49,306 bases of DNA from an uncultured Desulfatiglans sp. (GTDB lineage Bacteria; Desulfobacterota; DSM-4660; Desulfatiglandales; Desulfatiglandaceae), in assembly GCA_900498135.1 (NCBI GenBank), contig LR026961.1, positions 2,312,637 to 2,361,942 on the forward strand. The letters are read 5' to 3'. The first letter of the stretch is position 1. Each line of letters begins with the position of its first letter. Of the stretch, positions 4,746 through 46,778 are shown in pieces. The position numbers and the translations under genes are program-made. Under the pieces are notes generated by a model. The model was not told the origin of the DNA and searched no databases. It worked only from the letters and a program-made list of their open reading frames with translations.

Positions 4746-4750
4746 AAGAC

Positions 4751-30431: not shown

Positions 30432-30444
30432 GTTGCTTACTCCT

Positions 30445-30633
30445 TCACCCATCCACCCGGAGTTCGTCCAGGTCACAAACATTGATTTCCAGCATCTTCA
30501 GCGATGCCAGCATGCGCGCGGTGTTGCGTTTGACGGCCGGAAAGGTGTCCGCCATTCCATGGAGGCCTTCGGCTGTTTTTCGCATGCTGGAGATCATCTC
30601 GGCCATTTTTTTGAATTGAGCCTCATCTACCAT
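30445..30633 (-). CDS. Small conserved-looking protein of unknown function
   Basis: 62 residues with a good ribosome site (AAAGGAG). The sequence MVDEAQFKKMAEMISSMRKT and the following segment are predicted helical and amphipathic; one Cys is in NVCDLDELRVDG. Not recognised. It sits 21 bp after the PaaK-like ligase and 13 bp before the nitroreductase, all on the same strand, which supports it as a real operon member. Confidence 0.7.
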   Translation of the reverse strand: MVDEAQFKKMAEMISSMRKTAEGLHGMADTFPAVKRNTARMLASLKMLEINVCDLDELRVDG

Positions 30634-30654
30634 CGCCGGCCTTCTCCTTTCCTG

Positions 30655-31986
30655 TCAATGGTCCTTTCGCAGGTCCTTGAACCGTTTGGCCTTGACCTCG
30701 TAGCGGGGCAGGCGACCGTAATCATTGAACTCGAGGTCATAGCGCAGATTGGTCTTCAGCCGCAGCTGATCGACCAGGGCGGCCTCGACGGCCTTCCGGT
30801 TCCCGCGGGCCTCCGGCAGCACCTCGACCTTGAGGGTGATCCGGTCCGAATCTCCGACCTTGTCGACGATGACCTCGTATTCGTCCCCGAGCCCCTCGAT
30901 GCTCCGCACGACCTCTTCGATGGCGGAAGGAGCGAGCAGCACGCCCTTGACCTTGGTGATATCATCGGCGCGGCCGACCACCCCGCCCTTGATGAGGCGG
31001 AAGGTCCGGCCGCAGCGGCAGGGCTCCGAATCCCATTCGATCACATCTTTGGAATCGAAACGGACGCAAGGCTGGGCCTGGCGGTCGAAGGCGGTGATGA
31101 CCATCTTGCCCCGCCGGCCGGGTTCTTCGATGATCTCCCCCGTGTCGATGTCTTCGATCTCGACCAGGAACATGCCTTCATTGACGTGCATCCCGAAGGG
31201 CTGCTCCGCGCACTCGAAGGACCAGGCCCCGATTTCCGTCGCGCCGGCATGATCGAAGACCTTGGCGCCCCAGGCATCCTGCATGCGCTTTTTGGTGGAA
31301 GGGATCCCGGCGCCGGGTTCTCCGGCGCAAGTGATCCTGCGAATCGTCAGCGCAGCGGGGTCGATTCCCATCTTGCGGGCGGTGTCCGCCATCCCGAGCA
31401 CATAGGTGGGCGTGGCCATCATGGCCGTGGCCCTCAGTTCCTGTATCTTGAGGATGCGTGCCTTGGTGTCGAGAATTCCGCCCGGCACGACCTCGCAGCC
31501 GATCTTTTCGGCGGCGTAATGCCCCGCCCAGAAGGCGACGAAGATATTGTACCCGAAGGGCAGGAAGACCCGATCAGACGGGCGGTACCCCTGGGACCAG
31601 AGAATGCAGGACCAGCACTCGGCCCACCATTCCCAGTCCTGCCACGTATCCGGCTGGTACACCGGTTGACCGGTCGTGCCGCTCGTCTGGCGAAACTCGG
31701 TCACCTCCTCCAGCGGCACGCAGAGGGCGTCCCCGTAAGGGAAAGGATCTTTCCGCTGGATGTCGCGCATCATGGATTTTTCCACCTTCGGCACGGCGCG
31801 GATGTCCTCGAACGTACGGATATCCTCCGGGCGGACACCCGCCTGATCGTAGAGCGCGCGGTGAAACCGGGAATGGTCATAGGTCCAGGCAAAGATCCGC
31901 TTGAACTTTTTCAGCTGAAGCGCCCTGAGTTTTTCCCTTGGCAGGGTCTCGATCACTGGATTCCAATAAATTGGATAGTCGACCAT
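30655..31986 (-). CDS. Phenylacetate-CoA ligase (PaaK)-family adenylate-forming enzyme
   Basis: 443 residues, the short PaaK type. Activates an aryl acid as acyl-AMP, then CoA thioester. Signature phosphate loop RQTSGTTGQPV, ATP-site segment FDHAGATEIGAW, and the hinge Asp region GRADDITKVKGVLLAPSAIEE. A Cys-rich loop SEPCRCGRTFR, common in PaaK, is present. The start has GAGAGG. Downstream of the response-regulator-like gene by 215 bp containing a long-armed inverted repeat (32110-32117 / 32150-32157). Together with the ligase at 41772-43430 it is a candidate 4-hydroxybenzoate- or benzoate-CoA ligase; which does what cannot be read. Confidence 0.88.
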   Translation of the reverse strand: MVDYPIYWNPVIETLPREKLRALQLKKFKRIFAWTYDHSRFHRALYDQAGVRPEDIRTFEDIRAVPKVEKSMMRDIQRKDPFPYGDALCVPLEEVTEFRQTSGTTGQPVYQPDTWQDWEWWAECWSCILWSQGYRPSDRVFLPFGYNIFVAFWAGHYAAEKIGCEVVPGGILDTKARILKIQELRATAMMATPTYVLGMADTARKMGIDPAALTIRRITCAGEPGAGIPSTKKRMQDAWGAKVFDHAGATEIGAWSFECAEQPFGMHVNEGMFLVEIEDIDTGEIIEEPGRRGKMVITAFDRQAQPCVRFDSKDVIEWDSEPCRCGRTFRLIKGGVVGRADDITKVKGVLLAPSAIEEVVRSIEGLGDEYEVIVDKVGDSDRITLKVEVLPEARGNRKAVEAALVDQLRLKTNLRYDLEFNDYGRLPRYEVKAKRFKDLRKDH

Positions 31987-32201
31987 GATGCAACCTCTCG
32001 GTTCAGGAACGCGACGAAAAAACGGTTTCAGACAGGCGCTTTAGGTCAGGCTTTCGGGATGAAGGTGCGCAGAACGAACCCTGCACTGATGCCTCTTTTA
32101 GCATAAAAGCGGTGGCCAGAGCAAGTATGGGAATCCCCTCGATGAAACCGGCCACCGGTCTTTCAGGAAGCGGAGGGACGCGGAATAGTCCCGATCGCTT
32201 C

Positions 32202-32729
32202 TCACTCCTGCTTTTTCTGGGCCCTGGACCTGCTTTGGATGGCGGTCCGGAGTGTATCCAAAAACTCCCTGTCGGCCATTTCCCATGCGGCTCCGAACCG
32301 CATCTGGAAATACGATCGGGGAAGCCTTTTCTGCCATGCGACCAAGGGGCTCTCGCCCTTGGCGCGAGCGATCAGGATGTCGTTCAGAAAATCCTCGATC
32401 CGCGAGATCTCTTCCTTCGGAACATAAGCCGCCGCCCCTTCCTTGACGGATTTGATGACGTTGTCCGGCGTAAAGGCGTGGGCCGTCAACATGAGGGCTG
32501 GAATATCGTGCTGGTTGGCGATCTCGAGAAGGTCATACCCCCTGACGCCCATGATATCCAGGACGGCTACATCGAAACGCCGCGACTCGAGCAGGCGTTT
32601 CGCCTCCTCGTACGTGGAGGCGGTGACGACCTGGCACATGCTCAAATGTTCTGTCAACACATCGAGGATATCCTGTTCGTCATCCACCACCAGGATTCTT
32701 TTCCCCTTCAACAGACTGCTTTCGGTCAT
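32202..32729 (-). CDS. Response-regulator receiver-domain protein without output domain
   Basis: 175 residues. REC domain at about 10-125 with the acidic pair D16/D17, phosphoacceptor D58 (AVLDIMGVRG), T82 (LTAH) and K105 (VPKEE) all present, so phosphorylation is plausible. The C-terminal 50 residues are basic and helical (KRLPRSYFQMRFGAAW), with no DNA-binding domain recognised. It starts 12 bp after the ATP-binding subunit of the phenylphosphate-synthase-like enzyme. In Thauera the third synthase gene at this place encodes a CBS-domain activator. No histidine kinase is in view. Confidence 0.88.
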   Translation of the reverse strand: MTESSLLKGKRILVVDDEQDILDVLTEHLSMCQVVTASTYEEAKRLLESRRFDVAVLDIMGVRGYDLLEIANQHDIPALMLTAHAFTPDNVIKSVKEGAAAYVPKEEISRIEDFLNDILIARAKGESPLVAWQKRLPRSYFQMRFGAAWEMADREFLDTLRTAIQSRSRAQKKQE

Positions 32730-32741
32730 TGTAAAATCTCC

Positions 32742-33818
32742 TTAGTCGAGCTTCAGCTTGATGGGCGTGGTCGCTTTTTCGAACAACAACTCAAAACCCG
32801 TCTTCTTGCCCAGGACGGACTCTTTCTTCTTTTTGCCCCAGGCGCTCTCGGGCCGGGCCTGCACGAGATAGATGGACTCGGGGAAGGGCAGGCTCCCGGA
32901 GATGGCAAATTCGATATCCTGGGGAACGCCGAAATGGCCCTCGACCTTTTTGGCGATGCGCGCCAGCTCGATGATCTCCTGGTCTTCCAGGCAGGGCTGC
33001 TGTTTTCGGTCGAGGGGCAACTCCTTGTACTCCATCTGCCGGGTTTCGGGGTTGTACGCGAATTCGCTTCCCTTGTCGGAGACGACCCTTTCGTCGATTT
33101 CCAAGGTGATCTTATCGACAAGATACCGGTCCGGATTGACGTTGCCCGAGACCACCGCCTCGCCGAAGCCGAAGCCGGCCTCCATGGAGACCTTCGACTC
33201 GTCGCCGTTGATGGGGTTGAGGCTGAACATGACACCGGCAGCCTTCGCGTCGACCATCGTGAGGACGGCCACCCCGATCGGGTCGTATTCCAGTTTGAGC
33301 CCCAGGCGCGCGCGGGCAATGATGGAGCGGGTGTTGAAGGTGCTCGCCCAGACGCTGCGCACGTATTTGACGACATCGTCCGCGCCGCTTACGTTCAGAA
33401 AGGTTTCGTACTGCCCAGGATGGCTGACCGGACCCGCCGAGCGTGTGGCGACAAAAAGGTTTTCCTTGCCGGTCTGCCGGCAGAGTTCAGCGTAGTACTC
33501 GCGGATGGTCTTGTCCATGTCGGGCGGGAGAGGGACCGATTCGACCGCGCTACGGACCTCTTTGGAGATGATGTCGAATTTCTCCGTGTCAGCCACACTC
33601 TCGGCATCGGCCTTCAAATTTGCAAGGATTTTCAGAACGCGGTCGGTTGCTTCGGTCTCCTTCATGAACCGGTCGTAGGCGACGACGCTCAGCGCGAAGC
33701 CGGGCGGGACGTGGAATCCGGCCTGCGTCAGCTCTCCGAGATTCGCACATTTTTTGCCCACGATGTCATTATGTTCCTTCGACAATTCGCTCAGCCAGTA
33801 AATCCATTGGTCCGGCAT
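32742..33818 (-). CDS. Phenylphosphate synthase PpsB-like subunit (PEP synthase ATP-binding domain)
   Basis: 358 residues. Equivalent to the N-terminal nucleotide-binding half of PEP synthase / pyruvate phosphate dikinase: VGKKCANLGELTQAGFHVPPG, VATRSAGPVSHPGQYETFLNV, AAGVMFSLNPINGDE, FGFGEAVVSG and the closing YLVQARPES. The swivelling His and PEP domains are absent and lie in part in the next gene upstream. Such split pairs phosphorylate phenol to phenylphosphate in Thauera. Start 33818 (MPDQWIYW) chosen because GGAGG is correctly spaced to it but abuts the ATG at 33827. An 86-bp gap with a stem-loop separates it from the PpsA-like gene. Confidence 0.85.
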   Translation of the reverse strand: MPDQWIYWLSELSKEHNDIVGKKCANLGELTQAGFHVPPGFALSVVAYDRFMKETEATDRVLKILANLKADAESVADTEKFDIISKEVRSAVESVPLPPDMDKTIREYYAELCRQTGKENLFVATRSAGPVSHPGQYETFLNVSGADDVVKYVRSVWASTFNTRSIIARARLGLKLEYDPIGVAVLTMVDAKAAGVMFSLNPINGDESKVSMEAGFGFGEAVVSGNVNPDRYLVDKITLEIDERVVSDKGSEFAYNPETRQMEYKELPLDRKQQPCLEDQEIIELARIAKKVEGHFGVPQDIEFAISGSLPFPESIYLVQARPESAWGKKKKESVLGKKTGFELLFEKATTPIKLKLD

Positions 33819-33859
33819 CTTCTTCATCCTCCTCTGTGTTGCTGCGATGCAGCGCCTCC

Positions 33860-33899
33860 CCGCCGGGCATCGAGGTGCGAGTTCCTCGGTCTCCGGCGG
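33860..33899 (-). other. Intercistronic stem-loop between PpsA- and PpsB-like genes
   Basis: Outer arms CCGCCGG / CCGGCGG and an inner GAGG / CCTC pair enclose the gap between the two subunit genes. No T-run follows, so it is more likely a processing or stability element than a terminator (inference). Confidence 0.45.
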
Positions 33900-33913
33900 A
33901 GAGGGGTAAAGAA

Positions 33914-35761
33914 TTAAGCGCGTTTAACGATGGTCACCTTGCCGGTGCTTCCATCCACGCGGATGATATCGCCGGTCTTGATGACCTGGGTCGCGACCCC
34001 GGTTCCGGTCACGGAAGGCAGACCGTATTCCCGCGAAACGATGGCCGCGTGCGAGGTGAGACCGCCGATATCCGTTACGGCGGCCTGGATCTTGGTAAAG
34101 ACAGGGGCCCAGGACGGGTTGGTCGTCGGTGCGACCATGATCTCGCCGGGCTCCAGTTTGGCGACGTCCGCCAGCATTTTGAGCACGCGGGCGGGTCCTT
34201 CTGCCACGCCGGCGGATGAGGGGAACCCGGTGATCTCATCCAGATCTCCGACTTCCATCCCCGCGCCCTTCAACCACTCCTGCACCAGATCGGTCGTGAC
34301 GCCCCAGAGCATAAGGGTGAAGGGTTCGGCGATCTCTTCGGGCGGTACCCCGATGGCAGGAGAGGGATTCCACTTCGCCGCCGCATCGAGAATCTTCTTC
34401 CGTTTCTCGGCCTTCGCCTGCCAGAAGGCGCCTCTGGTGGGAACGCCTACGCCGAGGGCCCACGCGGTGGCCAGGTCCTCCAGGAGCATGGGGACCTCGA
34501 ACCGGTTGAAGAGGTAGATGTCTTCGGGTTCGGCGAGGACCCCGTGCTTGGTGAGGATCTTGCCGAACTGGTTGATCCGTTCAAACCAGATCGTGTGGAG
34601 CCAGTGCTCGACCCAGAAGAGGTGGTCCTCTGCATAGCGGTAGATCGCGCGGACGACCCGGTGCGCGTCCTCGAAGGTCTTGCGGTCGTCCTCGGACCGG
34701 ATGAGGGCCTTGTATTCGGCGACGATGCGCTCTCTTTCTTCGGAGATGGCATCGAACTTACGTTCGATCGTCTCGCCTTTCTCGAGACGTTCGACATAGC
34801 TCTGCATGTAGCTGAAGGGGAGGTCCATCGTGTTGATCCAACTCCCCTCGTAGTGGAACCAGCCGCTGCCGTTCGAGACATAGAACCACGGGTTCTTGAT
34901 CTTGTCCATCTCCTCGATCCAGGCCTTTCCTTCGGGCGTGGTCCTGAGGATGTTCATCTTCTCCTCGGCGGTGCCCTTCTGCTTCAAGACCTCGGCGACG
35001 GAGCGGTGGCTCATGGCCAGCCGGCTCAAGCGGCAGAGTTCTTCCTCCGGCCGGAACATGGAGACGTCCGCCCCGGCGACCATCTTGCCGATCGTGCCTT
35101 CCTTGATCCCGGGAAAAAGCTTCCGGCAGGTGTCCACGAACATCAGGTAGGCCAGGTAGGCCAGGTTGAGATACTGGAAGTGATACTGCCAGGCCCGGAT
35201 GATGAGATTGACGATGTCGTTGAAATTCTCCATGAGAACATTGGCTTCGGTAAATCCTTTGGGCGAAGGAATGACCTCGTCATCGGGCGCGAATTCATAC
35301 AGCTCTTTCGGGATGTGAATGGCCTCCATGTCATGGCCGAGTTTGTGGAATTTCTCGAGCCACTCTTCCCACTGCCGGGCGTAGTTATCAAAGGTGTAGG
35401 GAACCCGCTTCCCGAAAAGTTCGGCCTTCTTCTGGATGACGTCCCCCGGGGGCGATTCGACGGCGCTGATGTACATGTAGCACCCCAAAATACGCTGGGC
35501 GACGCCTTGGGCCGGAGGGATACAGAAGACCCTGGTGTTGTACTGGGACAGCGCGATCTGCCAGGCCTCCTGGAAGATGTCGTCCAGCGGGTAGAGCGGA
35601 TCGGCGGCGTGGATCTTGTCGTGATACCAGAAATGCCGCTTTTCCCAGGCCTCCCGGTCCTTGCTGAAAAGACGCTGGGGCGCGTACATTTCCTCCCATC
35701 CCTCCATTTCGGGTGGCAATTCGATTTCATCTGCAAATGGAAATTGGATCGGTGCTGCCAT
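33914..35761 (-). CDS. Phenylphosphate synthase PpsA-like subunit (phosphohistidine domain)
   Basis: 615 residues. The C-terminus is the PEP-utilising mobile domain, with the phosphorylated His (about H571) in GGLTSHAAIVSREYG. The long N-terminal part (about 1-500; FADEIELPPEMEGWEEMY, WFHYEGSWINTMDLPFSYMQS, WVEHWLHTIWFERINQFGKIL) matches the alpha subunit of phenylphosphate synthase rather than PEP synthase. In Thauera this subunit relays phosphate from ATP to phenol. Start 35761 has GAGGGGGGAA. It lies between the molybdenum-subunit gene and the PpsB-like gene. Action on another hydroxyaromatic or carboxylate is possible. Confidence 0.85.
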   Translation of the reverse strand: MAAPIQFPFADEIELPPEMEGWEEMYAPQRLFSKDREAWEKRHFWYHDKIHAADPLYPLDDIFQEAWQIALSQYNTRVFCIPPAQGVAQRILGCYMYISAVESPPGDVIQKKAELFGKRVPYTFDNYARQWEEWLEKFHKLGHDMEAIHIPKELYEFAPDDEVIPSPKGFTEANVLMENFNDIVNLIIRAWQYHFQYLNLAYLAYLMFVDTCRKLFPGIKEGTIGKMVAGADVSMFRPEEELCRLSRLAMSHRSVAEVLKQKGTAEEKMNILRTTPEGKAWIEEMDKIKNPWFYVSNGSGWFHYEGSWINTMDLPFSYMQSYVERLEKGETIERKFDAISEERERIVAEYKALIRSEDDRKTFEDAHRVVRAIYRYAEDHLFWVEHWLHTIWFERINQFGKILTKHGVLAEPEDIYLFNRFEVPMLLEDLATAWALGVGVPTRGAFWQAKAEKRKKILDAAAKWNPSPAIGVPPEEIAEPFTLMLWGVTTDLVQEWLKGAGMEVGDLDEITGFPSSAGVAEGPARVLKMLADVAKLEPGEIMVAPTTNPSWAPVFTKIQAAVTDIGGLTSHAAIVSREYGLPSVTGTGVATQVIKTGDIIRVDGSTGKVTIVKRA

Positions 35762-35848
35762 GATGTTCCCCCCTCTATTTGGTTGAATGCCCGGTGTTGC
35801 CTCGACCCGCCGCCCGCGCATTCCGGCGGGAAGCGGGTCACCCCTTGA

Positions 35849-38200
35849 CTACTTCCCCTTGGCCTTTTGGATGGCCATGAAGACCCTTTCCGGTGTGAGC
35901 GGAAGCTCGTCGATCCGAACGCCGATGGCGTCGTGTACCGCGTTCAGGATGGCCGGGATCGTGGGCATGATGGCCCCTTCCCCGACCTCCTTGGCCCCGA
36001 AGGGACCATTCGGTTCGCCGGTTTCCACCACGATGGTGTTGACGTTGGGCATGTCCAGGGCCGTAGCGATCTTGTACTCGCCGAGGTTGGCATTGAGGAC
36101 TCGTCCCTTGGCGTCGATCTTCACCTCTTCATAAAGGGCCTCACCGAGCCCCATGGAGAGCGATCCCTGCATCTGTCCCTCGACCGAGGTCACATTGATC
36201 GCCAGACCGCAGTCGTGGGCGTCCGTCATCTGGTCCACCTTGACGCGTCCGGTTTCGAGGTCGACCGTCACCTCCACGACTTGGGCGGAGCAGCCATAGG
36301 CTGGAGAGGTCCCGACGGCCGCCCCCTTGAATTTTCCGCCCAGTGCCGGCGGCTTGTACTTCCCGGTTCCGACGATGCTGCCTCTGGCGAGGTAGGCCAT
36401 GCGGGCGGCTTCTCTGAAGGTGAGCTTGTCTCCGGTGGGCGGATCGGTCCAGCCCCGATGCTCTTTGATGTAGGCCGTGCGCAGGCCGCTGAAATCGACG
36501 TCCTTCTTGAAGTGGATCAGGCCGTCTTTGATGTCCATCTCGTCCATCGGGACGCCGAGGATCTCGGAGACGACCTCCAATACCTGCCGTTTCACATCCT
36601 CGGCCGCCTCTTTGGCCGCATGCCCGCTCATCAGGGTCTGGCGGCTCGAATAGGCGCCGAGGTCCACGCCGTAGTCCGTGCTTCCCGAGGAGACCTTGAT
36701 ATCCTCCAGCCTCACCCCCAGGGCCTCGGCCGCGATCATGCCCATCGTCGTATCGGAGCCCTGCCCGATCTCGGCGGAGGCTGTCAGGAGATCCGCCGTG
36801 CCACCGTCTTCCCGCAGCTTCAGGACCGCGGTCGAATGGTAGGTGTCCGATCGGTAGATCGGATACCCGGCGCCCGAAACGAAGAATCCGCAGGCGATCC
36901 CGATTCCCTTGCCGGGGGGGAGCTTGCCCTTCTTGGCGTTCCAGTCCGAGCCGTTCTTCACGGCCTCGATGCATTCCTTCATGCCGAGGCTGCTCATGTT
37001 CAAGTCGTTGCAGGTGGTGTCTCCGCGCTCCATCATGTTCTTCAGGCGGAAATCGACCGGGTCGATGCCCAGCTCCTGGGCGATGGCATCCAGCTGCTGC
37101 TCCCAGGCCGCCCGCGCCGCCACCCCGCCGTGGCCCCGCTGGGCGCCGCAGGTGGGTTTGTTCGTGTAGATCCGATAGCCGTCATACTTCATGTTGGGCA
37201 GTTTGTAAGGACCGCCGAGGAGGGATCCGGCGTAGTAGACCGTGGCGATCCCGAAACTCGTGTAGGCGCCCCCTTCCAGGTAGCACTTGTTCGTCAGAGC
37301 CATCAGGGTCCCGTCCTTCTTGACCCCGGTGGTCAATTCGTGGAAGAACTGATGCCGGGCGCGGGAGTGTAGAAAGACCTGTTCCCGGGAATAGTTCATC
37401 TTGACCGGTTTGCCCGTCTTCATGGACATGAGGGAGGCCGCCATCTCGAGCGGGATGGCCTCGGCCTTGGGCCCGAAACCGCCACCTACATACGGCTTGA
37501 TCACGCGCACTTTTCCGATGGGGAGACGGAGCACCATGGCCGTGGTGCGCTGCACATAGTGCGGTGTTTGAGTGGAGGTGTGCAGGGTGAGTTCTCCCAT
37601 CAGGGGATCGAAGGACGCCAGACAGCCGTGCGGTTCGATGAAGGCGGGGTCCTGACGTTTGTTGACGAATTTGTCCGTCCGGATGAGGTCGCACTGCTTG
37701 AAGGCCTCTTCGACATTGCCGAACTCCTGGTGCACCTCGGCGCAGATGTTGCCGGGGTAGTCCGAATGGATCAAGGGGGCCCCTTCGGCCATGGCCTCTT
37801 CGATCGTCATAAGAAGTGGGAGTTCCTCGTAATCCACCTGAATGAGGGAGACAGCCTCCATCGCTGTTTCGAGATCGACGGCGGCTACCGCCGCGATCTC
37901 GTCGCCGATGTAGCGCACCTTGTCATGGCAGAAGAGGGTTTCATCGTAGCGGGCCGGGCTGACGCCGTACTTGACGAGTCCGGCTTCGGCGGCCGTAACG
38001 ACGCACTTGACCCCCGGAAGCTTTAAGGCCTTCGAGGTGTCGATGTTGAGGATCTTGGCGTGCGCGATCGGGCTTTGAAGCAGGGCACCGTAGAGCATGC
38101 CCGGCATCTTCAGATCGTCGACATATTGCGCGCGTCCCGTGGCTTTGGCCGGGGCGTCCAGCCTCGGCGCCCTGCGGTTGATGACGCTGTGTTGGCTCAT
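35849..38200 (-). CDS. Xanthine-dehydrogenase-family molybdenum subunit, 4-hydroxybenzoyl-CoA reductase HcrA-like
   Basis: 783 residues. Large Mo-pterin subunit: RLDAPAKATGRAQYVDDL opening, PYVGGGFGPKAEAIPLEMAA, the RGHGGVAARAAWEQQLD segment, and GAKEVGEGAIMP with the catalytic Glu. Length is close to HcrA of Thauera. In this operon the likely reaction is reductive dehydroxylation of 4-hydroxybenzoyl-CoA to benzoyl-CoA; reductive deamination of an aminobenzoyl-CoA or a hydroxylation are alternatives. GAGGAG precedes the start. It follows the [2Fe-2S] subunit gene after 152 bp that hold a GC-rich stem-loop (CCGGAG / CTCCGG, near 38290-38316). Confidence 0.87.
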   Translation of the reverse strand: MSQHSVINRRAPRLDAPAKATGRAQYVDDLKMPGMLYGALLQSPIAHAKILNIDTSKALKLPGVKCVVTAAEAGLVKYGVSPARYDETLFCHDKVRYIGDEIAAVAAVDLETAMEAVSLIQVDYEELPLLMTIEEAMAEGAPLIHSDYPGNICAEVHQEFGNVEEAFKQCDLIRTDKFVNKRQDPAFIEPHGCLASFDPLMGELTLHTSTQTPHYVQRTTAMVLRLPIGKVRVIKPYVGGGFGPKAEAIPLEMAASLMSMKTGKPVKMNYSREQVFLHSRARHQFFHELTTGVKKDGTLMALTNKCYLEGGAYTSFGIATVYYAGSLLGGPYKLPNMKYDGYRIYTNKPTCGAQRGHGGVAARAAWEQQLDAIAQELGIDPVDFRLKNMMERGDTTCNDLNMSSLGMKECIEAVKNGSDWNAKKGKLPPGKGIGIACGFFVSGAGYPIYRSDTYHSTAVLKLREDGGTADLLTASAEIGQGSDTTMGMIAAEALGVRLEDIKVSSGSTDYGVDLGAYSSRQTLMSGHAAKEAAEDVKRQVLEVVSEILGVPMDEMDIKDGLIHFKKDVDFSGLRTAYIKEHRGWTDPPTGDKLTFREAARMAYLARGSIVGTGKYKPPALGGKFKGAAVGTSPAYGCSAQVVEVTVDLETGRVKVDQMTDAHDCGLAINVTSVEGQMQGSLSMGLGEALYEEVKIDAKGRVLNANLGEYKIATALDMPNVNTIVVETGEPNGPFGAKEVGEGAIMPTIPAILNAVHDAIGVRIDELPLTPERVFMAIQKAKGK

Positions 38201-38352
38201 GGTCTTTCACTCCTCTCGATAGCATGGATCGGGTTTTGATGTCTGCGTTGTCTTCAGCACTCAGGCTCGGTTGGTCCAGGGAATCAGCAGACCGGAGGCC
38301 TCTTTGCAGGGGCTCCGGCCGGCGCGGACACGGAAATGTTCACCCGGCCTGA

Positions 38353-38817
38353 TCAACCGGCACGGCCGACGTCGAGGATCGCCTCGACGATCTTCTGATA
38401 GCCTGTGCAGCGGCAAAGGTTCCCTGAAAGCGCGCGTCTGACCTCGGCCTCGTTGGGATGCGGATTCTTCTCGAGCAGGCTTTTGGCCGAGAGGATCATC
38501 CCGGGGCTGCAGAAGCCGCACTGGATCGAACCGTGCTCGATGAAGGCCTGCTGCAGCGGGTGCAGTCCTTTGCCCGTCTCCACGCCTTCAATGGTAGTGA
38601 TATTCTTGCCGTTGGCTTGGACTGCAAGGACGAGGCAGGAGTTGACGGCTTTTCCATCCATGATGACCGTGCAGGCCCCGCAGTCCCCCAGGTCACAGCC
38701 TTTCTTGGTGCCGGTCAGGCCCAGTTCGTATCGCAGAAGGTCCGTGAGGGTGAGATTTGGCGCCACGGCCACTTCCATTTCTTCACCGTTGATGGTCAGT
38801 CGGATCAATTTTTTCAT
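38353..38817 (-). CDS. [2Fe-2S] subunit of the molybdenum enzyme (HcrC-like)
   Basis: 154 residues. All eight cluster ligands are visible: plant-type set C41, C46, C49, C61 (GCDLGDCGAC ... SC) and the helical-domain set C100, C103, C135, C137 (QCGFCSPG, LCRCTGY). Carries electrons between the FAD and Mo subunits. The ribosome site is GAGGAG. The start is 14 bp after the stop of the FAD-subunit gene. Confidence 0.93.
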   Translation of the reverse strand: MKKLIRLTINGEEMEVAVAPNLTLTDLLRYELGLTGTKKGCDLGDCGACTVIMDGKAVNSCLVLAVQANGKNITTIEGVETGKGLHPLQQAFIEHGSIQCGFCSPGMILSAKSLLEKNPHPNEAEVRRALSGNLCRCTGYQKIVEAILDVGRAG

Positions 38818-38831
38818 CGTTTCATTCTCCT

Positions 38832-39713
38832 CTAGCTTCTGGCCCGGGCGTCCTTGAGGGCCGCATCGAGGGCGCGTTTCGTCAGGACCCCCACCATGGC
38901 CCGCCGGTATGCGGCGGATCCGCGGAAGTCGTCGATCGGGCGGCTGTCGCCCGAAGCTGCATTCGCTGCTTTTTCGAACAGGGCGTCGGAGGGCTTCTCG
39001 CCGATCAACGCACTTTCGGCCGACGGCGCTCGGATGGGGGTAGGGGCAACCGAACCGAGGACCACCCGTGCGGCCTTGATGGGTCCGCTTGGACCGTCCA
39101 GGGCGATGAAGGCCGCCACGTTGACGAGGGAGATCTCGAGCGCTTCTCGAACCCCGAGCTTCTGGTAGCCGGCTCCCGAGTTCGGGAGCGGTGCCGGGAG
39201 GAGAAAAGCGGTCAGAAGTTCATCCTGGGCCAGAATCGTGGCGCCCGGACCGGTAAAGAGCGATTCCACCGGGACGGTGCGCTCGCCGCCCGTTTTCTGG
39301 AGCACGGCTTCTGCGCCGTAAGCAATAAGGGACGGGGGAAGGTCGGCCGCTGGACGGGCCGAGACCACATTGCCGGCGATGGTCGCGAGGTTTCTGACCA
39401 GGGGGGAGCCGAGCCAGCCCGCGCCGGAGGCGAGGGCGGCAAAGGTCTGCTTTACCAGCGCGTTTTCGGCCAGATCCGCCACGTTTTCACGGGCGCCGAT
39501 GCGCACCTGCCCATTTTTCTTGTCTACCCCTTTCAGGTCTGCGAGTTTTCCGACGGAGATCACATTCGCCGTGGTGTAGACCTTCTTTTTGAGGTTGACC
39601 AGAAGGTCTGTTCCGCCTGCCAGAACTTTTCCGTCCCCTTTGAACTGTGACAGCAGTTCGCAGACCTCCGCCACGCTCCCGGGCTCATGGTAATCAAATC
39701 TAGGTAAAAGCAT
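38832..39713 (-). CDS. FAD-binding subunit of the molybdenum enzyme, lacking the HcrB [4Fe-4S] insert
   Basis: 293 residues. FAD motifs VLAGGTDLLV and RNLATIAGNVV are present, as is the C-terminal CO-dehydrogenase-flavoprotein domain (GVREALEISLVNVAAF). It has a single cysteine in total. 4-Hydroxybenzoyl-CoA reductase from Thauera carries about 40 extra residues with four Cys binding a [4Fe-4S] cluster in this subunit; that insert is missing here, where sequence runs directly from TIAGNVVSARPAADLPP. Start 39713 (MLLPRFDYHEP) has AAAGGAG at 8 bases; the ATG at 39719 is too close. It may work with a different electron donor or on a different substrate. Confidence 0.88.
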   Translation of the reverse strand: MLLPRFDYHEPGSVAEVCELLSQFKGDGKVLAGGTDLLVNLKKKVYTTANVISVGKLADLKGVDKKNGQVRIGARENVADLAENALVKQTFAALASGAGWLGSPLVRNLATIAGNVVSARPAADLPPSLIAYGAEAVLQKTGGERTVPVESLFTGPGATILAQDELLTAFLLPAPLPNSGAGYQKLGVREALEISLVNVAAFIALDGPSGPIKAARVVLGSVAPTPIRAPSAESALIGEKPSDALFEKAANAASGDSRPIDDFRGSAAYRRAMVGVLTKRALDAALKDARARS

Positions 39714-39755
39714 CTTCATCTCTCCTTTGTTGTCCCTGGGCTCAAACCCTTGCGC

Positions 39756-40337
39756 CTAACGGGGCTTCGCGGACGTTTCCTCGCCCCAGCGCCGGAACAG
39801 GTTGTGCTCGATTCCGAGGTAATCAAAGATTTTTCCGATGGTCTGATCGAGGATGTCCTCGATGGTTTTGGGTTTGTGGTAGAATGACGGCACGGGAGGC
39901 AGAAGATGGGCGCCCATGTCGGCGGCGGTCATCATGAGCCTGAGGTGCCCCTTATGTAAAGGTGTTTCACGGACGACCAGCACCAGTTTGCGCTTCTCTT
40001 TCAGCGTGACGTCGGCGGCGCGGACGAGAAGGTTTTCGGTGTAGGAATTGGCGATCCCCGAGAGGCTCTTGATCGTGCAGGGTGCGACGACCATTCCCGA
40101 GGTGAGGAAGGATCCGCTGGCGAGGGCCGCACCGACGTCGCGGTGATCATAGCAGTATGCGGCCATGGCTTCAATATCCTTTGCGGTGTACCCGGTTTCG
40201 ATCTCGATATTTTTTTTGCCTGATGGTGAGATGATGAGGTGGGTTTCAACATCGGTTTTACTGAGGTGTTCCAGCAGACGTACGCCATAGATGACGCCGC
40301 TGGCGCCCGAAATGGCTACGACGATTCGTTGATTCAT
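39756..40337 (-). CDS. ubiX: Flavin prenyltransferase UbiX
   Basis: 193 residues. Makes prenyl-FMN, the cofactor of UbiD-family (de)carboxylases, from FMN and dimethylallyl (pyro)phosphate. VVAISGASGVIYGVRLLE opening, VAPCTIKSLSGIANSYTENLL, RKLVLVVRETPLHKGHLRLM and the closing PPVPSFYHKPKTIEDI are typical. The AAGGGG site supports the start. It lies in the same operon as the UbiD gene, giving a direct cofactor supply. Confidence 0.94.
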   Translation of the reverse strand: MNQRIVVAISGASGVIYGVRLLEHLSKTDVETHLIISPSGKKNIEIETGYTAKDIEAMAAYCYDHRDVGAALASGSFLTSGMVVAPCTIKSLSGIANSYTENLLVRAADVTLKEKRKLVLVVRETPLHKGHLRLMMTAADMGAHLLPPVPSFYHKPKTIEDILDQTIGKIFDYLGIEHNLFRRWGEETSAKPR

Positions 40338-40556
40338 GGCAACCCCTTGCTATTCCCCCTGCATGGCCGAGGGTACTGGTTTCAAATGGGAAAATTCCCG
40401 CAAGCCATGCTATCGCCCCGGCTCGCCGGGGGCAGGAAACTCCGGCTGCCGGGGATGTCGCGTGGCATGGGCGGAACATCCCTGCTTGGTTCTCCTTCGA
40501 TCAGGATACTTCTCCTTCCTGATGCCTCCTGCATTGAAATCGCTGGAAACCTCCCA

Positions 40557-41768
40557 TTAAAAAATCTGAAGGGATGCCTTGACGACCGCCGCGGCAAAGG
40601 CTGGATCCTCCATGTTGTCGTCCACTTCGAGGATTTCGATCTCAGGCTTGAGGCCTTTGCGCAACTCCTCCGCAAAGACGAGGTCCTCTTCGGGGTTGTG
40701 GGTGGCATTTCCCGGATAATCGACGGAAGACCATCCTTTAAGGGGGATAAGGACCTTAACGGGACCTTTGGAGCGGTTGAGTTTTTCCCGGAATGCCCCG
40801 GCTACTTCGCGCAGTTCGTCGGCCGAGAGGCGGATCCAGGTGCGGAACCGGTCGAGATCGTATTTCGGCCGCTGCGCATAGTCCGGTTTGTACTTGGATT
40901 TGGCGGGCGTCATGTGATTGACGCTGCAGGTCGAGATGATCTGCGGAATCCCGGCCTCACCGGCGGACTCGAGACGCCTCGGCCCCGCGTCCCGCATGAA
41001 GCCGAACAAGTGTTCGCCGACGCCGCCGGGCGCCAGATCGACGACCCCGCTGAACAGCCCGTCGGCGATCATGTCTTCCATCGCACGGTCGCAGACCCCA
41101 GCCGCAGAAAACCCGATGACCTGGTATCCCTCCTGGGTCAAGGCCTCGCGGACGGAACTGGCGCATTTCTCGCAAGGCCCGAGCATGGTGAGGGCGATGG
41201 CCTTGCCTGCAGCGGAGCGGGGGGAGATGATGTCATCCTGCACCTGGCCCGCCATGGCGGCCGCCGCCCGATCCAGGACGTTTTTCAAGAGGTCCGAGAG
41301 CCCCGAGATCTCGATGACCGAGTGAAAAAGGGCGATGTCTCCTGTACCGATGTACCGGGTGGAAAGGCCCGGCAACGCGGCGGTGGAGGAGATCATCAGC
41401 TTGGGTACGCCGAAGGGCAGCGCCCGCATGACATCCGTCGCCATCAGGGATCCGGTGGAGCCCCCGAGCCCGACGACGCCGCTGAGCTTGCCTTCCTTCT
41501 GAAGATCCTGGGCGATCTTTGCCCCGCCCCGGATCATGGTGTTGGTGATTTTAGAGCGTTCACGGGATTCGCGAACCTCCTGCAGGCTGCTCCCGCCGGC
41601 CTCGGCCACACGGCCGGGGCCGATGTCGGCGGGGGAAGCCTCGTCGCCGCGCATCGAGATATCCATCAAGAGGGGCTCGAGGCCCCTGGCCTCGAGCCGT
41701 TCCTTCAGATACAGGGTCTCCTGCCCTTTGGTATCCAGGGTGGATATCACCAGGACTTTCTTGCCCAT
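40557..41768 (-). CDS. Tm-1-like / UPF0261 family protein (operon copy)
   Basis: 403 residues. MGKKVLVISTLDTKGQE opening, GVVGLGGSTGSLMATDVMRALPFGVPKLM with the ATP-binding-type glycine loop, and a C-terminal half resembling TIM-barrel metabolic enzymes (LIPLKGWSSVDYPGNATHN). The family includes the tomato Tm-1 N-terminal domain; its metabolic role in bacteria is not established. A second member lies at 47021-48235. It is four bases from the ligase gene and 219 bp before ubiX, so it belongs to the operon. Confidence 0.88.
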   Translation of the reverse strand: MGKKVLVISTLDTKGQETLYLKERLEARGLEPLLMDISMRGDEASPADIGPGRVAEAGGSSLQEVRESRERSKITNTMIRGGAKIAQDLQKEGKLSGVVGLGGSTGSLMATDVMRALPFGVPKLMISSTAALPGLSTRYIGTGDIALFHSVIEISGLSDLLKNVLDRAAAAMAGQVQDDIISPRSAAGKAIALTMLGPCEKCASSVREALTQEGYQVIGFSAAGVCDRAMEDMIADGLFSGVVDLAPGGVGEHLFGFMRDAGPRRLESAGEAGIPQIISTCSVNHMTPAKSKYKPDYAQRPKYDLDRFRTWIRLSADELREVAGAFREKLNRSKGPVKVLIPLKGWSSVDYPGNATHNPEEDLVFAEELRKGLKPEIEILEVDDNMEDPAFAAAVVKASLQIF

Positions 41769-41771
41769 GAT

Positions 41772-43430
41772 CTAAATCTCCCCTGCTGCGATCCGCTTTT
41801 CAATGTCGACTTTGAGTTCCTTCTTATTGATCTTGCCGGAGTCGCCCACCGTGGGGAAGGCGTCCATGAGGACCATCTTTTCAGGCAATTTGAACATGGC
41901 CAGTTTCTTCGACTTCAGGAAGTCGACCATCTCCTGGAAGGTCAGGGTCTGACCGGCCTTGGGGATGACGCAGACGCAGCACCTTTCCCCCATCTCTCGG
42001 TCGGGGTAGCCCACGATGGCGACCGAGGCCACCTTCGGATGTTCGTTGAGCAGTCCTTCGACCTCGGCTGGGTAGATGTTCTGGCCGCCGCGGATGATCA
42101 TATCCTTGGCGCGTCCGAGGATCCAGAGGCAGCCCTGGTCGAACTTGACGATGTCGCCTGTGGTGGTCCAGCCGTTTTCGTCGAACACCGTGGCCGTGAG
42201 CTTCTCGTCCCGGTAATAGCCCGCCGGGGCGTGGGGGCCGCGGAACCAAAGCACGCCGGGTTCGCCTTCCGGGACCTCCTTCTTGTTTTCTTCATCCATC
42301 AGACGCACTTCGTTGCCGGGCAGCATGCGGCCGACCGTGCGGCGGCGGAGTTCCTTCGAATCTTCCACGCGGCATCCCGAGACCGAACCCATATCCTGGG
42401 TCCCCAGGTCGCTCGTAATGGCGGCGCCAAAGGCATTCTCGGCCTCCTCGGCCACCTGCGGCGAGAGGTAGCCGCCGGCCGAGCGGATGAAACGAAGGGA
42501 ACTCAGGTCATACTTCTTGGTGTCGACCTCGAGCATTCTCACGAGGTGCGTCGGGACCACGCCGATGGCCGTCGCCTTCTCCTTCTCGATCAGCGCCAGG
42601 GCGTCTTCGGGGGAGAATTCCTCGAGCATGACGGTCTTCGCACCGGCGAGCGGTGCCGCAAAATAGGTCAGGGTTCCGGCCGCGCCGCCGGCGTGGGGCG
42701 CGATGGCCATGGTGATGTCGTCCTTGTTCAGCCCCCAGATGTCGACGCGGGCCTTCGAGGTGCAGACCCTGGGCGCGATGGGCCATTCGACCAGCTTGGG
42801 AAGTCCGGTGGTGCCGGTGGTGCTGGTGAGGAGCCCCACGTTCCAGATGGGATCCAGGCGCCTTTCCTTAAAAACGGCTTCATCGCCCGGTTTCGGGCTG
42901 CGGCCCTCGGCGAGTTTGGTAATGGAGTAGGTGCCTGCCGGGGCGTCGGCGGGGACCGTGTCATCGAACAGGAAGAAATTCTTGAGATAGGGGAAGCGCG
43001 CCTGAAGACCCTTGTACATCGCGAGGTAGTCGAACTTGCGATAGACCGTCGGGATGACGACGGCAGCGGCCTCGGTCCGTTCGACCATGTACTCCAGTTC
43101 TTTCTCCCTCAGGTAGGGATAGACGGTCAGGGAGATCAGACCGGCCCTCTCGCTCGCGACGCGGGCCAGAAATCCGTAAACGCTGTTGGGGGACTGGATG
43201 ATGATGCGGGAGAACTTGGGGATGCCCATCTCCACCCACGACATCGCGATCGCGTCGACCAGCTTTTTGGCCTGGGCCCAGGTGACGCGATACTTCGAGT
43301 CCACCAGAGCCTCACGATCACCCAGTTCACGGGCGTTGCGATCATAAAAATCATAAAAGGTCTCCTGCGTCCAGTAGCCCTTCTTCAGGAATTCATCGAC
43401 CATCTTCTGCTGATAACGGATCGGTTTCAT
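41772..43430 (-). CDS. AMP-dependent aryl-CoA ligase / aryl-AMP synthetase family protein
   Basis: 552 residues. Adenylation P-loop LLTSTTGTTGLPKLVEW, A5-like motif SDLGTQDMGSVSG, the TTGDIVKF and hinge GRAKDMIIRGGQNIYPAEVE, and the catalytic Lys in GDSGKINKKEL. It resembles the DhbE/EntE-like aryl-acid branch, which fits activation of 4-hydroxybenzoate or a related acid. GAGGGAAG precedes the start. Second gene of the operon after ubiD, which places it directly after the carboxylation step. Confidence 0.88.
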   Translation of the reverse strand: MKPIRYQQKMVDEFLKKGYWTQETFYDFYDRNARELGDREALVDSKYRVTWAQAKKLVDAIAMSWVEMGIPKFSRIIIQSPNSVYGFLARVASERAGLISLTVYPYLREKELEYMVERTEAAAVVIPTVYRKFDYLAMYKGLQARFPYLKNFFLFDDTVPADAPAGTYSITKLAEGRSPKPGDEAVFKERRLDPIWNVGLLTSTTGTTGLPKLVEWPIAPRVCTSKARVDIWGLNKDDITMAIAPHAGGAAGTLTYFAAPLAGAKTVMLEEFSPEDALALIEKEKATAIGVVPTHLVRMLEVDTKKYDLSSLRFIRSAGGYLSPQVAEEAENAFGAAITSDLGTQDMGSVSGCRVEDSKELRRRTVGRMLPGNEVRLMDEENKKEVPEGEPGVLWFRGPHAPAGYYRDEKLTATVFDENGWTTTGDIVKFDQGCLWILGRAKDMIIRGGQNIYPAEVEGLLNEHPKVASVAIVGYPDREMGERCCVCVIPKAGQTLTFQEMVDFLKSKKLAMFKLPEKMVLMDAFPTVGDSGKINKKELKVDIEKRIAAGEI

Positions 43431-43538
43431 CTTTGCTTCCCTCTCGAAATGGATGAATGTTCGTCTGCCTTGATGGGGCTGTCTTCCCGCTGCCGGTTGA
43501 AGACCGGCCTTGAACGGACCCGCCTAAAAACGGTTTTC

Positions 43539-43573
43539 GGCGCACCCCCGGCCTGAACGGCCGGGAGTGCGCC
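43539..43573 (-). other. Strong stem-loop between ubiD and the ligase gene
   Basis: A 15-bp stem with one mismatch: GGCGCAC-C-CCCGGCC, loop TGAAC, then GGCCGGG-A-GTGCGCC. On the transcribed (minus) strand it is followed by GAAAACCGTTTTTAGG, so a partial terminator or a processing site that sets the ubiD to downstream ratio is possible. Confidence 0.6.
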
Positions 43574-43601
43574 TCCCGGGGGAGGGTTTCCGGTTTAAGG
43601 A

Positions 43602-45008
43602 TTAGAGCCCTAGTTCTGACCAGCGTGCTTCGACCTTCTTGACTATTTCGGGGTCGAGCTTGATCGGGATGGGCTTCTCTTTCCAGTCGTAGGGGATGGT
43701 GGCGTCCAGCAGGAGGCGGCCCGTGATATCCCTGGCGTCGATGGGCAGCGAGGGGTCGAGCGGGGTCGAGCGGCCGCGCTTGATGACCTGGCAGCGGTTC
43801 GGCTGGAAGCGGAAGCTCAGGGCGTACAGGACCCGTGGAATATCCCAGGGCTCGATGTCTTCGTCGACCACGATCACGGTCTTGAGGCCGTAGGCGCCCA
43901 TTTCCGTCGAGATGGCGGCGGTGAGTACCTGGTCGGCGTGGCCGGGATACATCTGTTTCATGGAGATGATGGCGAGGAAGCGGCCCGAGCCTTCCGGCGG
44001 GCAGTAGACCGAGCGGATGCCGGGGATCTTCATGGCGACGAGCTGCTGCCACAGGGTCGCGCCGTAGGAGATGGCCATGGTCATGTGGGTGTCGGTGACG
44101 GCACGGCCGACCGTGGTGCCCCAGAGGATCGGGTTGTTGCGGTGGGTCACGCACTTGACATCGATGAAATTCCTCGGGTCTGTTCCGACGCCGGAATAGT
44201 AGCCGGTGTATTCACCGAACGGGCCTTCCTGCATGAAGGCCTCGGGATCGACCTCGCCTTCGACGACGATTTCAGCGTGCGCCGGGATCGGGAGATCCAC
44301 GGTTTCGCCCTGGACCACTTCGACCGGTTCGTTGCGGATGGCGCCGGCGACATCGTACTCCGACACGAAAGCGGATATCCGGGCGGCGCCGAGGATGAAG
44401 AGCAGGGGGTCGCAGCCGATGATCGAGGCGACCGGCATCTTTTTGCCCATGGCCTGGTATTTCTTGAGCATGATGTCGGCGTGCTTGCCTTTGATGAACT
44501 GGGTGCCCATCTTGTCCTTTCCGAGGAGCTGGGAGCGGTAGGTACCGAGGTTCACCCAGCCGGTCTCGGGGTCTTTCGAGATGATGAAATGGGCGGTGCC
44601 GAGAAAGCGGCCGCCGTCGAGGGGGTACCAATGAGGCGTCGGGAATTTGTATAGGTCGACTTCGTCGCCCATCATGATATTCTCTTTGCAGGGCGCGGCG
44701 GACTTGTCCACTACCTTCGGGGGAATCAGCTTGTCGCCGATTTTGACCCATTCTTCCATGATCTGCGTCAGGGAAGACGACCGGTCCATCCCCATGATGA
44801 GGGAGAGCCGCTCTGTGGTCGTGCAGACGCTCGTGATGACGGGTGAGGTGTAATCCTTCACGTTCTCGAACAGCAGCGCCGGACCTTGTTTTTCTTCGTT
44901 CAACTTGGCGATGTGCGACAGCTCCAGGTTCCAATCGACCTTCGCCTTGATCCGCTTCAGCGCGTCATGCTCTTCGGCCACCTTGACAAAATCTCTCATG
45001 CTTTTCAT
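43602..45008 (-). CDS. ubiD: UbiD-family prenyl-FMN-dependent carboxylase/decarboxylase
   Basis: 468 residues. Opening MKSMRDFVKVAEEHDALKRI, prenyl-FMN and metal-site blocks NLGTYRSQLLGKDKMG and EGPFGEYTGYYSG (catalytic Arg and Glu), and VVDEDIEPWDIPRVLYAL. Phenylphosphate carboxylase of Thauera uses several UbiD-like subunits; only one is encoded here. In context it would carboxylate phenylphosphate (or a phenol) to 4-hydroxybenzoate. AAGGAG is 8 bases before the first ATG, which fixes the start. First gene of the 15-kb operon, divergent from the LysR gene. Confidence 0.92.
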   Translation of the reverse strand: MKSMRDFVKVAEEHDALKRIKAKVDWNLELSHIAKLNEEKQGPALLFENVKDYTSPVITSVCTTTERLSLIMGMDRSSSLTQIMEEWVKIGDKLIPPKVVDKSAAPCKENIMMGDEVDLYKFPTPHWYPLDGGRFLGTAHFIISKDPETGWVNLGTYRSQLLGKDKMGTQFIKGKHADIMLKKYQAMGKKMPVASIIGCDPLLFILGAARISAFVSEYDVAGAIRNEPVEVVQGETVDLPIPAHAEIVVEGEVDPEAFMQEGPFGEYTGYYSGVGTDPRNFIDVKCVTHRNNPILWGTTVGRAVTDTHMTMAISYGATLWQQLVAMKIPGIRSVYCPPEGSGRFLAIISMKQMYPGHADQVLTAAISTEMGAYGLKTVIVVDEDIEPWDIPRVLYALSFRFQPNRCQVIKRGRSTPLDPSLPIDARDITGRLLLDATIPYDWKEKPIPIKLDPEIVKKVEARWSELGL

Positions 45009-45573: not shown

Positions 45574-45612
45574 TTATGGTATCCATAAGTGTTATTTATG
45601 AATAGGATTCAT
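45574..45612. promoter_or_regulatory. Two adjacent T-N11-A dyads (LysR-type boxes)
   Basis: TTATGG-TAT-CCATAA (45574-45588) and ATGAAT-AGG-ATTCAT (45598-45612) are both perfect 6+3+6 dyads, each holding the LysR T-N11-A pattern. Their centres are 24 bp apart, roughly two helical turns. They lie about 200 bp before the lysR start, fitting autoregulation and perhaps control of the divergent operon. Confidence 0.6.
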
Positions 45613-45809
45613 GCATAACCGGCTTTTAGGGATTGGATCACCATGATGCGACGGAAGCGAGGCTGCACTTTTGTTTCCTGTTTTTCCATTGGAGGGGCAA
45701 GGATTCCTTCTATTGCGGCTGTGCGTGAATGGGGCCATTTTGCTTTGTGCAGAGGATGGGCAGTTTCCTTCCGGGGATTGAGGCGCAGGGTGCCAGGAGG
45801 TCGTTTTAT

Positions 45810-46778
45810 ATGATTAATTTCAATCATTTCAGGATATTTTACTATGCTGCCAAGGCGGAAAGTTTCACCGAAGCGGCGGAGAGGCTTTTCATCACCCAGC
45901 CGGCCGTGACAGCACAGATACGCGCCTTCGAAGAAGCCTGCAACCTCAAATTGTTCAAAAAAAAAGGGCGCCACGTCCATCTTACAGACGAAGGGAAAGC
46001 CCTTTTTCACTATGCCCGCAAGGTATTCGAATTCGAGCATGAAATTGAGGTTGCGATCGACAAGATGCACCAGCTCAAGCGGGGGGTCCTGCGGATAGGG
46101 ACCACCAAGACCTATGCGCGTTACTTCATGCCTTACCTTCTCAGCGGTTTTTTGAAGGATTACCCGGATATAAAGGTCTTTTTGAACGAGGGCAGTTCGG
46201 CCGAAATGACCCGTGGACTGCTCGATCTGACCATCGAGATCGCGGTAATCGCCAAAGCCGAGGAGAACCCTGCGGTTGTCTTCAGGCCCTTCAGCCAGGA
46301 GGAATTGCTGCCTATTCTTCCACCCGGTCACAGGCTGGCGGGGCGGGATTCGGTGCATTTTACGGAGCTGGCCGGGGACCCGATCATCTTGAAGGACACC
46401 GGATCAGGGACGCGGAGGCGCGTGGCGGATCTCTTCGCGAGATACGGGCGTGTTCCGAATATCCTGATGGAGACGAACAATGTCGAATTCATCAAAGAGT
46501 TGGTTGGGAGGGGAGAGGGCTTCTCTTTCCTCGTCAAGGCAGCCGTGGTCCAGGACGTAAAAGAAAAACGGCTGGTCACGCCTCAGATAAGGGGCGAGCA
46601 TCTTTATCTCGATGTGAGCATTGCCTATCTGAAGGATCAGTCCCTTTCGAGGCCAGCCAAGGCCTTTCTGCGTATGCTCGAGAACTTGGCCGGCGACAAC
46701 CCGTCACCGGCCGAAGGCATCGGGGCCCTCACAGCGAGGATCCTGGCCCGAGGCGAGGAGGCTGGCCGGATCGAATGA
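45810..46778 (+). CDS. LysR-family transcriptional regulator
   Basis: 322 residues. N-terminal winged helix-turn-helix (MINFNHFRIFYYAAKAESFT, ITQPAVTAQIRAFEEACNLKLF) and a C-terminal periplasmic-binding-fold effector domain from about residue 90 (VLRIGTTKTYARYFMPYLL, LTIEIAVIAKAEE). Start 45810 has AGGAGG upstream; the frame is open further but without conservation. Its divergent place beside the aromatic operon makes it the likely local regulator, perhaps responding to an aromatic acid (inference). Confidence 0.92.
   Translation: MINFNHFRIFYYAAKAESFTEAAERLFITQPAVTAQIRAFEEACNLKLFKKKGRHVHLTDEGKALFHYARKVFEFEHEIEVAIDKMHQLKRGVLRIGTTKTYARYFMPYLLSGFLKDYPDIKVFLNEGSSAEMTRGLLDLTIEIAVIAKAEENPAVVFRPFSQEELLPILPPGHRLAGRDSVHFTELAGDPIILKDTGSGTRRRVADLFARYGRVPNILMETNNVEFIKELVGRGEGFSFLVKAAVVQDVKEKRLVTPQIRGEHLYLDVSIAYLKDQSLSRPAKAFLRMLENLAGDNPSPAEGIGALTARILARGEEAGRIE

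Follow-up and report, generated by a model that had tools for sequence, protein, structure and literature searches.

The genes at 35849–39719 of the window (the whole stretch of 49,306 nucleotides analysed here) probably encode a molybdenum-containing 4-hydroxybenzoyl-CoA reductase (4-HBCR) of an anaerobic phenol pathway, in which a catalytic subunit of the HcrA line would work with an exchanged FAD subunit and electrons would enter directly at the FAD.

A phenol operon with an insertless FAD subunit

The three subunit genes belong to an operon of 14.35 kb (30655–45008), whose genes all read on the minus strand in the ascending order of Table 1, from the phenylacetate-CoA-ligase-type gene to the UbiD-type gene. 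Gene order and size equal those of the phenol (phe) cluster H567DRAFT_02049–02059 of Desulfatiglans anilini, which is given as 14.4 kb and whose proteins, in the sections of the report drawn on here, reach far higher levels in growth on phenol than with benzoate (PMC6114531). The operon proteins are 94–99% identical to those of a same-genus genome (G001), which was taken as D. anilini DSM 4660 on the basis that three of four compared protein masses equal the published values. These are the CoA ligase (50.501 kDa), PpsB (39.928 kDa, with the start three codons downstream) and the UbiD-type carboxylase (52.24 kDa), while none of the start sites listed for PpsA matches the published 70.027 kDa, the nearest giving 70.38. 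Three antisense ORFs, p601 (32112–33917, +), p571 (30391–32106, +) and a 249-aa ORF (45609–46358, −), were rejected as genes and ignored in the neighbour-gene counts; none has a Pfam or NCBIfam family, and they lie opposite PpsB, a CoA ligase and a LysR gene, respectively. Near the cluster, on the opposite strand, there is an aldehyde ferredoxin oxidoreductase-type gene (27713–29443, +). The window also holds a second UPF0261 gene (47021–48235, −); L228:4437–5669 is of this family too, and the D. anilini contig matching the aniline cluster has one such gene. These genes may have a role in carboxylating aryl compounds or in forming CoA esters.

The initial annotation had described the FAD subunit as having one cysteine and lacking the [4Fe-4S] insert, and the ORF translation and the alignment to T. 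aromatica HcrB bear this out. The ORF encodes 295 aa with a single Cys; its start is either 39719 (MKMLLP) or the third codon at 39713, the latter being plausible because most orthologues start MLLP. Both Pfam domains of the medium-subunit fold, FAD_binding_5 and CO_deh_flav_C, were detected. In T. aromatica HcrB the insert (Cys 122/138/146/155) is placed between GGN and GDVAP, where the window protein reads GNVVSARPAADLPPSL and the four-Cys insert is absent. The single Cys is itself variable, with 1 to 7 Cys among 20 aligned clade members. With the HcrB model TIGR03195 the subunit scores 116.5 bits (cut-off 404.55), and its top NCBIfam model is XdhB at 207.1 bits, also below cut-off (310). 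In its AlphaFold model (pLDDT 88) the nearest structures are CO dehydrogenase (CODH) medium chains (Z 37.6), with HcrB 1rm6_B farther away (Z 33.3); by sequence, too, the best solved relative is a CODH medium chain, CutM (PDB 1ffu/1ffv, 161 bits).

Table 1. Genes of the phenol operon and the divergent regulator, in window coordinates.
Feature	Position	Strand	Basis and remarks
Phenylacetate-CoA-ligase-type acyl-CoA ligase	30655..31986	-	Pfam AMP-binding_C_2 and AMP-binding; published as 4-hydroxybenzoate-CoA ligase
Response regulator receiver protein	32202..32729	-	Pfam Response_reg
PpsB-like phenylphosphate synthase beta subunit	32742..33827	-	Pfam PPDK_N
PpsA-like phenylphosphate synthase alpha subunit	33914..35821	-	C-terminal PEP-utilizers mobile domain; position matches H567DRAFT_02052
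Catalytic molybdenum subunit, HcrA-like	35849..38200	-	TIGR03194, best solved relative 1rm6_A, tree position
[2Fe-2S] subunit	38353..38817	-	Pfam Fer2_2 and Fer2; Cys 41, 46, 49, 61, 100, 103, 135, 137
FAD (medium) subunit, no [4Fe-4S] insert	38832..39719	-	Pfam PF00941 and PF03450; D. anilini orthologue H567DRAFT_02055 ('CO dehydrogenase medium subunit')
UbiX-type flavin prenyltransferase	39756..40337	-	NF004685 above cut-off
UPF0261 protein	40557..41768	-	Pfam UPF0261 N and C; near HcrA orthologue in 14 loci
AMP-forming acyl/aryl-CoA ligase	41772..43430	-	Pfam AMP-binding; orthologue of H567DRAFT_02058; in 14 clade loci
UbiD-type phenylphosphate carboxylase beta subunit	43602..45008	-	TIGR02724, 506.7 bits, above cut-off 468.95
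LysR regulator, divergent from cluster	45729..46778	+	Pfam HTH_1 and LysR_substrate

The catalytic subunit and its orthologues in the Desulfobacterota

The Mo, FAD and 2×[2Fe-2S] subunits are encoded together in one operon, the make-up of HcrABC. Against the HcrA model TIGR03194 the catalytic subunit scores 903.6 bits; the curated cut-off of 994.55 is passed by no protein in 61 genomes, that of the window included. Within the window genome it is the top HcrA match (899.9 bits), followed by 764.3, 724.2, 667.8 and 600.7 bits. The XdhA model gives 599.9 bits, below its cut-off of 780, and among solved chains T. aromatica HcrA (1rm6_A) matches with 588 bits and the next chain with 314 bits. In the trees, where T. 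aromatica stands as the one proven HcrABC, the subunit and its close relatives form a clade (the window clade) whose sister in the 90-row catalytic tree is T. aromatica HcrA together with the insert-bearing enzyme L209 (SH-aLRT 97); in a careful tree of 34 rows from which L209 was left out, T. aromatica HcrA takes the sister position by itself (96/91). Tyr326 of T. aromatica HcrA, which we take to be an active-site residue, corresponds to Tyr323 of the window subunit and occurs in 52/52 catalytic subunits of the clade. Outside the clade it was found in one of 37 catalytic subunits partnered with an insert-bearing FAD subunit (L209) and in one of 30 with an insertless partner. Our literature search found no paper joining this residue to 4-HBCR.

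A contig scan for HcrA orthologues returned 52 loci. Fifty, from Desulfonema magnum, Desulfosarcina cetonica and alkanivorans, Desulforhabdus, Syntrophorhabdus, Syntrophus and many MAGs, show 69–79% identity over the best segment, and two show 33–35%. Once duplicates and fragments had been taken out and related-genome loci added, the clade set comprised 52 catalytic subunits. The FAD gene is in view for 45 of these and out of view for 7, and the four-Cys pattern is found in none of the 45, so that the missing insert is more than a chance feature of one protein. Duplicates (L061, L063, L083), low-scoring Mo hits and Mo fragments below 1800 nt (L112, L113, L116) were dropped before counting, FAD pairs more than 1600 nt apart (L110) were counted as not in view, and L090, whose FAD gene lies in two overlapping frames, was still scored insertless. 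A UbiD gene accompanies 13 clade loci and a PpsA gene 10. In D. magnum and D. alkanivorans, both with complete genomes, the window-type set is present and two FAD subunits each were found, all insertless; the HcrB model cut-off was passed by nothing in 395 genomes of the phylum. Plasmid searches for further proven HcrABC (R. palustris, Azoarcus, Geobacter) led to distant relatives only. One gene family accompanies the HcrA orthologue closely in 15 loci, in most of them as the next gene downstream; the two members that were scanned (L065:11368–12174, +; L097:11636–12397, +) are ThiF-type, and 13 more loci have the family. None of the conserved neighbours (ThiF-, MoeA- and MobA-type cofactor genes, IclR regulators and a histidine phosphatase) indicates an electron donor.

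Discordance between the FAD and catalytic trees

The FAD trees were built without the insert columns. In the careful tree all 16 insert-bearing subunits, including T. aromatica HcrB, form one group, and the window clade falls outside it (98/94); the window-clade FAD group itself has weak support (74/91). In the larger tree the group consists of the 37 insert rows and L230 (support 99), a subunit missed by the insert pattern which nonetheless has a longer four-Cys insert. In contrast, the tree of the catalytic partners from these loci nests the window clade within the insert-bearing set. A three-subunit phylogeny had been proposed in the initial annotation; in the trees of two of the subunits, the catalytic one sides with T. 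aromatica HcrA and the FAD subunit stays outside the insert-bearing HcrB group. In AU tests on the FAD alignment, joining the window clade and T. aromatica HcrB as one clade gave p 0.025 and imposing the grouping of the catalytic (HcrA) tree gave p 3e-70; on the catalytic alignment, uniting all insert-bearing subunits gave p 2.6e-7 and placing the window clade outside gave p 0.026, the tested groups having been chosen after the trees were known and T. aromatica being a long branch.

An FAD clade outside the insert-bearing HcrB group, with a catalytic partner nested among insert-bearing enzymes, suggests that the subunit was exchanged as a whole and that the insert was not simply deleted. From this discordance it is likely, not proven, that a medium subunit of the xanthine dehydrogenase (XDH)/CODH type replaced HcrB in an ancestor of a large Desulfobacterota clade, given the post hoc naming of the groups and the long branch of T. 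aromatica. Two more insertless lineages, the L008 group and L011, lie inside the catalytic tree, and pairing with an insertless subunit thus probably arose more than once. As a further sign of exchange, loci L168 and L170 of one genome (G004) have near-identical insert-bearing FAD subunits and clearly different catalytic subunits. FAD variants at L230:9025–10026 (−), L262, L257 and L261 have a four-Cys insert longer than that of HcrB and with other spacing, and they possibly represent a further subtype.

Alternative functions, electron route and known systems

The genome of the window encodes seven FAD subunits, two of which, at 4.377 and 0.960 Mb, are insert-bearing and head the genome's HcrB matches (223.4 and 177.5 bits). 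That these sets are the true 4-HBCRs and the window set has another function is nevertheless unlikely, since as HcrA their catalytic subunits reach 600.7 and 667.8 bits (the window's, 899.9), fall outside the clade of T. aromatica and the window, and are without Tyr326; moreover, no insert-bearing FAD subunit accompanies the window-type set in the complete genomes of D. magnum and D. alkanivorans. D. anilini has nine FAD subunits, insert-bearing sets among them. Its contigs C56 and C57, which presumably adjoin, have the gene order of the published aniline cluster, and C57 carries an insert-bearing FAD subunit, from a set related to those of the window genome. According to the available part of PMC7500099, phenol-grown cells showed no aniline-cluster proteins: high abundance of the 4-HBCR proteins encoded in cluster ani was confined to 4-aminobenzoate or aniline, and the 4-HBCR proteins of cluster hcr were detected on aniline only. 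This pattern makes the phe set the best candidate on phenol in D. anilini, although a further set on C106, with no link to the published proteome, could act on phenol-derived 4-hydroxybenzoyl-CoA. A second complete hcrBCA set had been named in the initial annotation as the case that could explain the pathway otherwise; two insert-bearing HcrB-like sets do exist, but they lie outside the operon and have the more distant catalytic subunits. It is also quite improbable that the window set reduces another aryl-CoA, be it 4-aminobenzoyl-CoA, protocatechuyl-CoA or a substituted 4-hydroxybenzoyl-CoA. The substrate is not readable from the sequence and D. anilini degrades aniline too (PMC7500099, in part); against this, the cluster encodes phenylphosphate synthase and carboxylase, and according to the sections of PMC6114531 used here the orthologous cluster is raised on phenol. 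The suggestion of 4-aminobenzoyl-CoA made in the initial annotation is disfavoured in particular, because the aniline-cluster contigs carry their own insert-bearing set.

The same annotation had raised the possibility of a hydroxylase. An oxidative enzyme of the xanthine dehydrogenase type would agree with XdhB being the best, sub-cut-off model of the FAD subunit, with a fold general to the family; yet the sister position to HcrA and the shared Tyr326, the need of the phenol pathway for a dehydroxylation to arrive at benzoyl-CoA, the phenol operon itself and the phenol induction reported for D. anilini (PMC6114531, in part) make it very unlikely. We give hardly any credence to the FAD and Fe-S subunits being an aerobic-type CODH working with CO2/CO. 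The label comes from D. anilini, for which, in the sections available, formation of CO was discussed with reductive dehydroxylation as an alternative (PMC6114531), and it fits the solved structures nearest to the FAD subunit; however, the Mo subunit of the same operon scores 329.3 bits with the CoxL model TIGR02416 (cut-off 991.15) against 903.6 as HcrA, and the FAD gene adjoins the HcrA orthologue in 45 loci. The labelling of H567DRAFT_02054/02055 (window 38353–39719, −) is probably a misassignment, which probably arose because the FAD subunit is CODH-like.

The operon would thus lead from phenol through phenylphosphate, 4-hydroxybenzoate and 4-hydroxybenzoyl-CoA to benzoyl-CoA, with the insertless 4-HBCR at the last step. 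By its sequence the enzyme would work like a 4-HBCR, while formally it stays below the cut-offs of two curated models and lacks the [4Fe-4S] feature. With no such insert in the FAD subunit, electrons probably enter the reductase by another route, as the initial annotation had proposed; this inference agrees with the finding that no ferredoxin-type CxxCxxC motif occurs elsewhere in the 14.4 kb cluster, and CxxCxxCx2-4C frames were found in the window only at 4616–6465, far from it. We infer for this enzyme the reductase reaction, its reductive direction and a direct entry of electrons at the FAD, from where they would reach Mo by way of two [2Fe-2S] clusters; the enzyme would do without the [4Fe-4S] relay through which T. 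aromatica accepts electrons from ferredoxin, and NADH is a reasonable first guess as donor. Tentatively, and with somewhat less than even confidence, such a chimera of an HcrA-line catalytic subunit and an exchanged XDH/CODH-type flavin subunit may be the main 4-HBCR of phenol-degrading sulfate reducers and syntrophs, drawing on a donor such as NADH with no ferredoxin/[4Fe-4S] relay.

The HcrB insert has reportedly been treated as what enables a reverse, ferredoxin-driven enzyme of the xanthine oxidase type. If our reading is true, the [4Fe-4S] cluster formerly regarded as enabling inverted electron flow is not needed, and a widespread insertless clade at the same pathway step would separate reductive catalysis from this cluster; for low-energy anaerobes that degrade phenol, the balance of electrons and energy would change as well. 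It would also correct the CO dehydrogenase reading of the two D. anilini subunits as given in the part of PMC6114531 considered. Searched by reductase name at title and abstract level, the literature yielded no description of an insertless 4-HBCR in Desulfobacterota.

Among known systems, T. aromatica HcrABC (PDB 1rm6/1sb3) shares with the window enzyme the sister catalytic subunit, the three-subunit make-up, Tyr326 and the place in the phenol pathway; unlike the window's, its FAD subunit has the four-Cys [4Fe-4S] insert and groups elsewhere. The D. anilini phe cluster is alike in genes, order and protein sequence, and differs in that its FAD and Fe-S subunits were published as CO dehydrogenase (PMC6114531, in part), whereas they are here assigned to the reductase. 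CutM resembles the window FAD subunit most by both sequence and fold, but the catalytic partner in the window is HcrA-like and not CoxL. Urolithin C dehydroxylase (Ucdh) of Enterocloster bolteae, a purified enzyme also of the xanthine oxidase family, takes off a phenolic hydroxyl located para to an acyl group, and its closest characterised relative is 4-HBCR (32.7% identical); unlike the window enzyme's presumed substrate, that of Ucdh is no CoA ester, and NADH was shown to serve it as donor (PMC12771579, in part). Known reductive enzymes lacking the insert had been named in the initial annotation as a case against its reading, and Ucdh comes close to this case by description, MCD, FAD and two [2Fe-2S] clusters being the only cofactors given for it in the portion of PMC12771579 at hand. 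Finally, E. coli PaoABC (5g5g) is likewise a three-subunit enzyme of the xanthine oxidase family, and its FAD subunit PaoB has a Cys-containing insert at the HcrB place, yet the enzyme oxidises aldehydes; the insert alone is thus no marker of the reductive direction.
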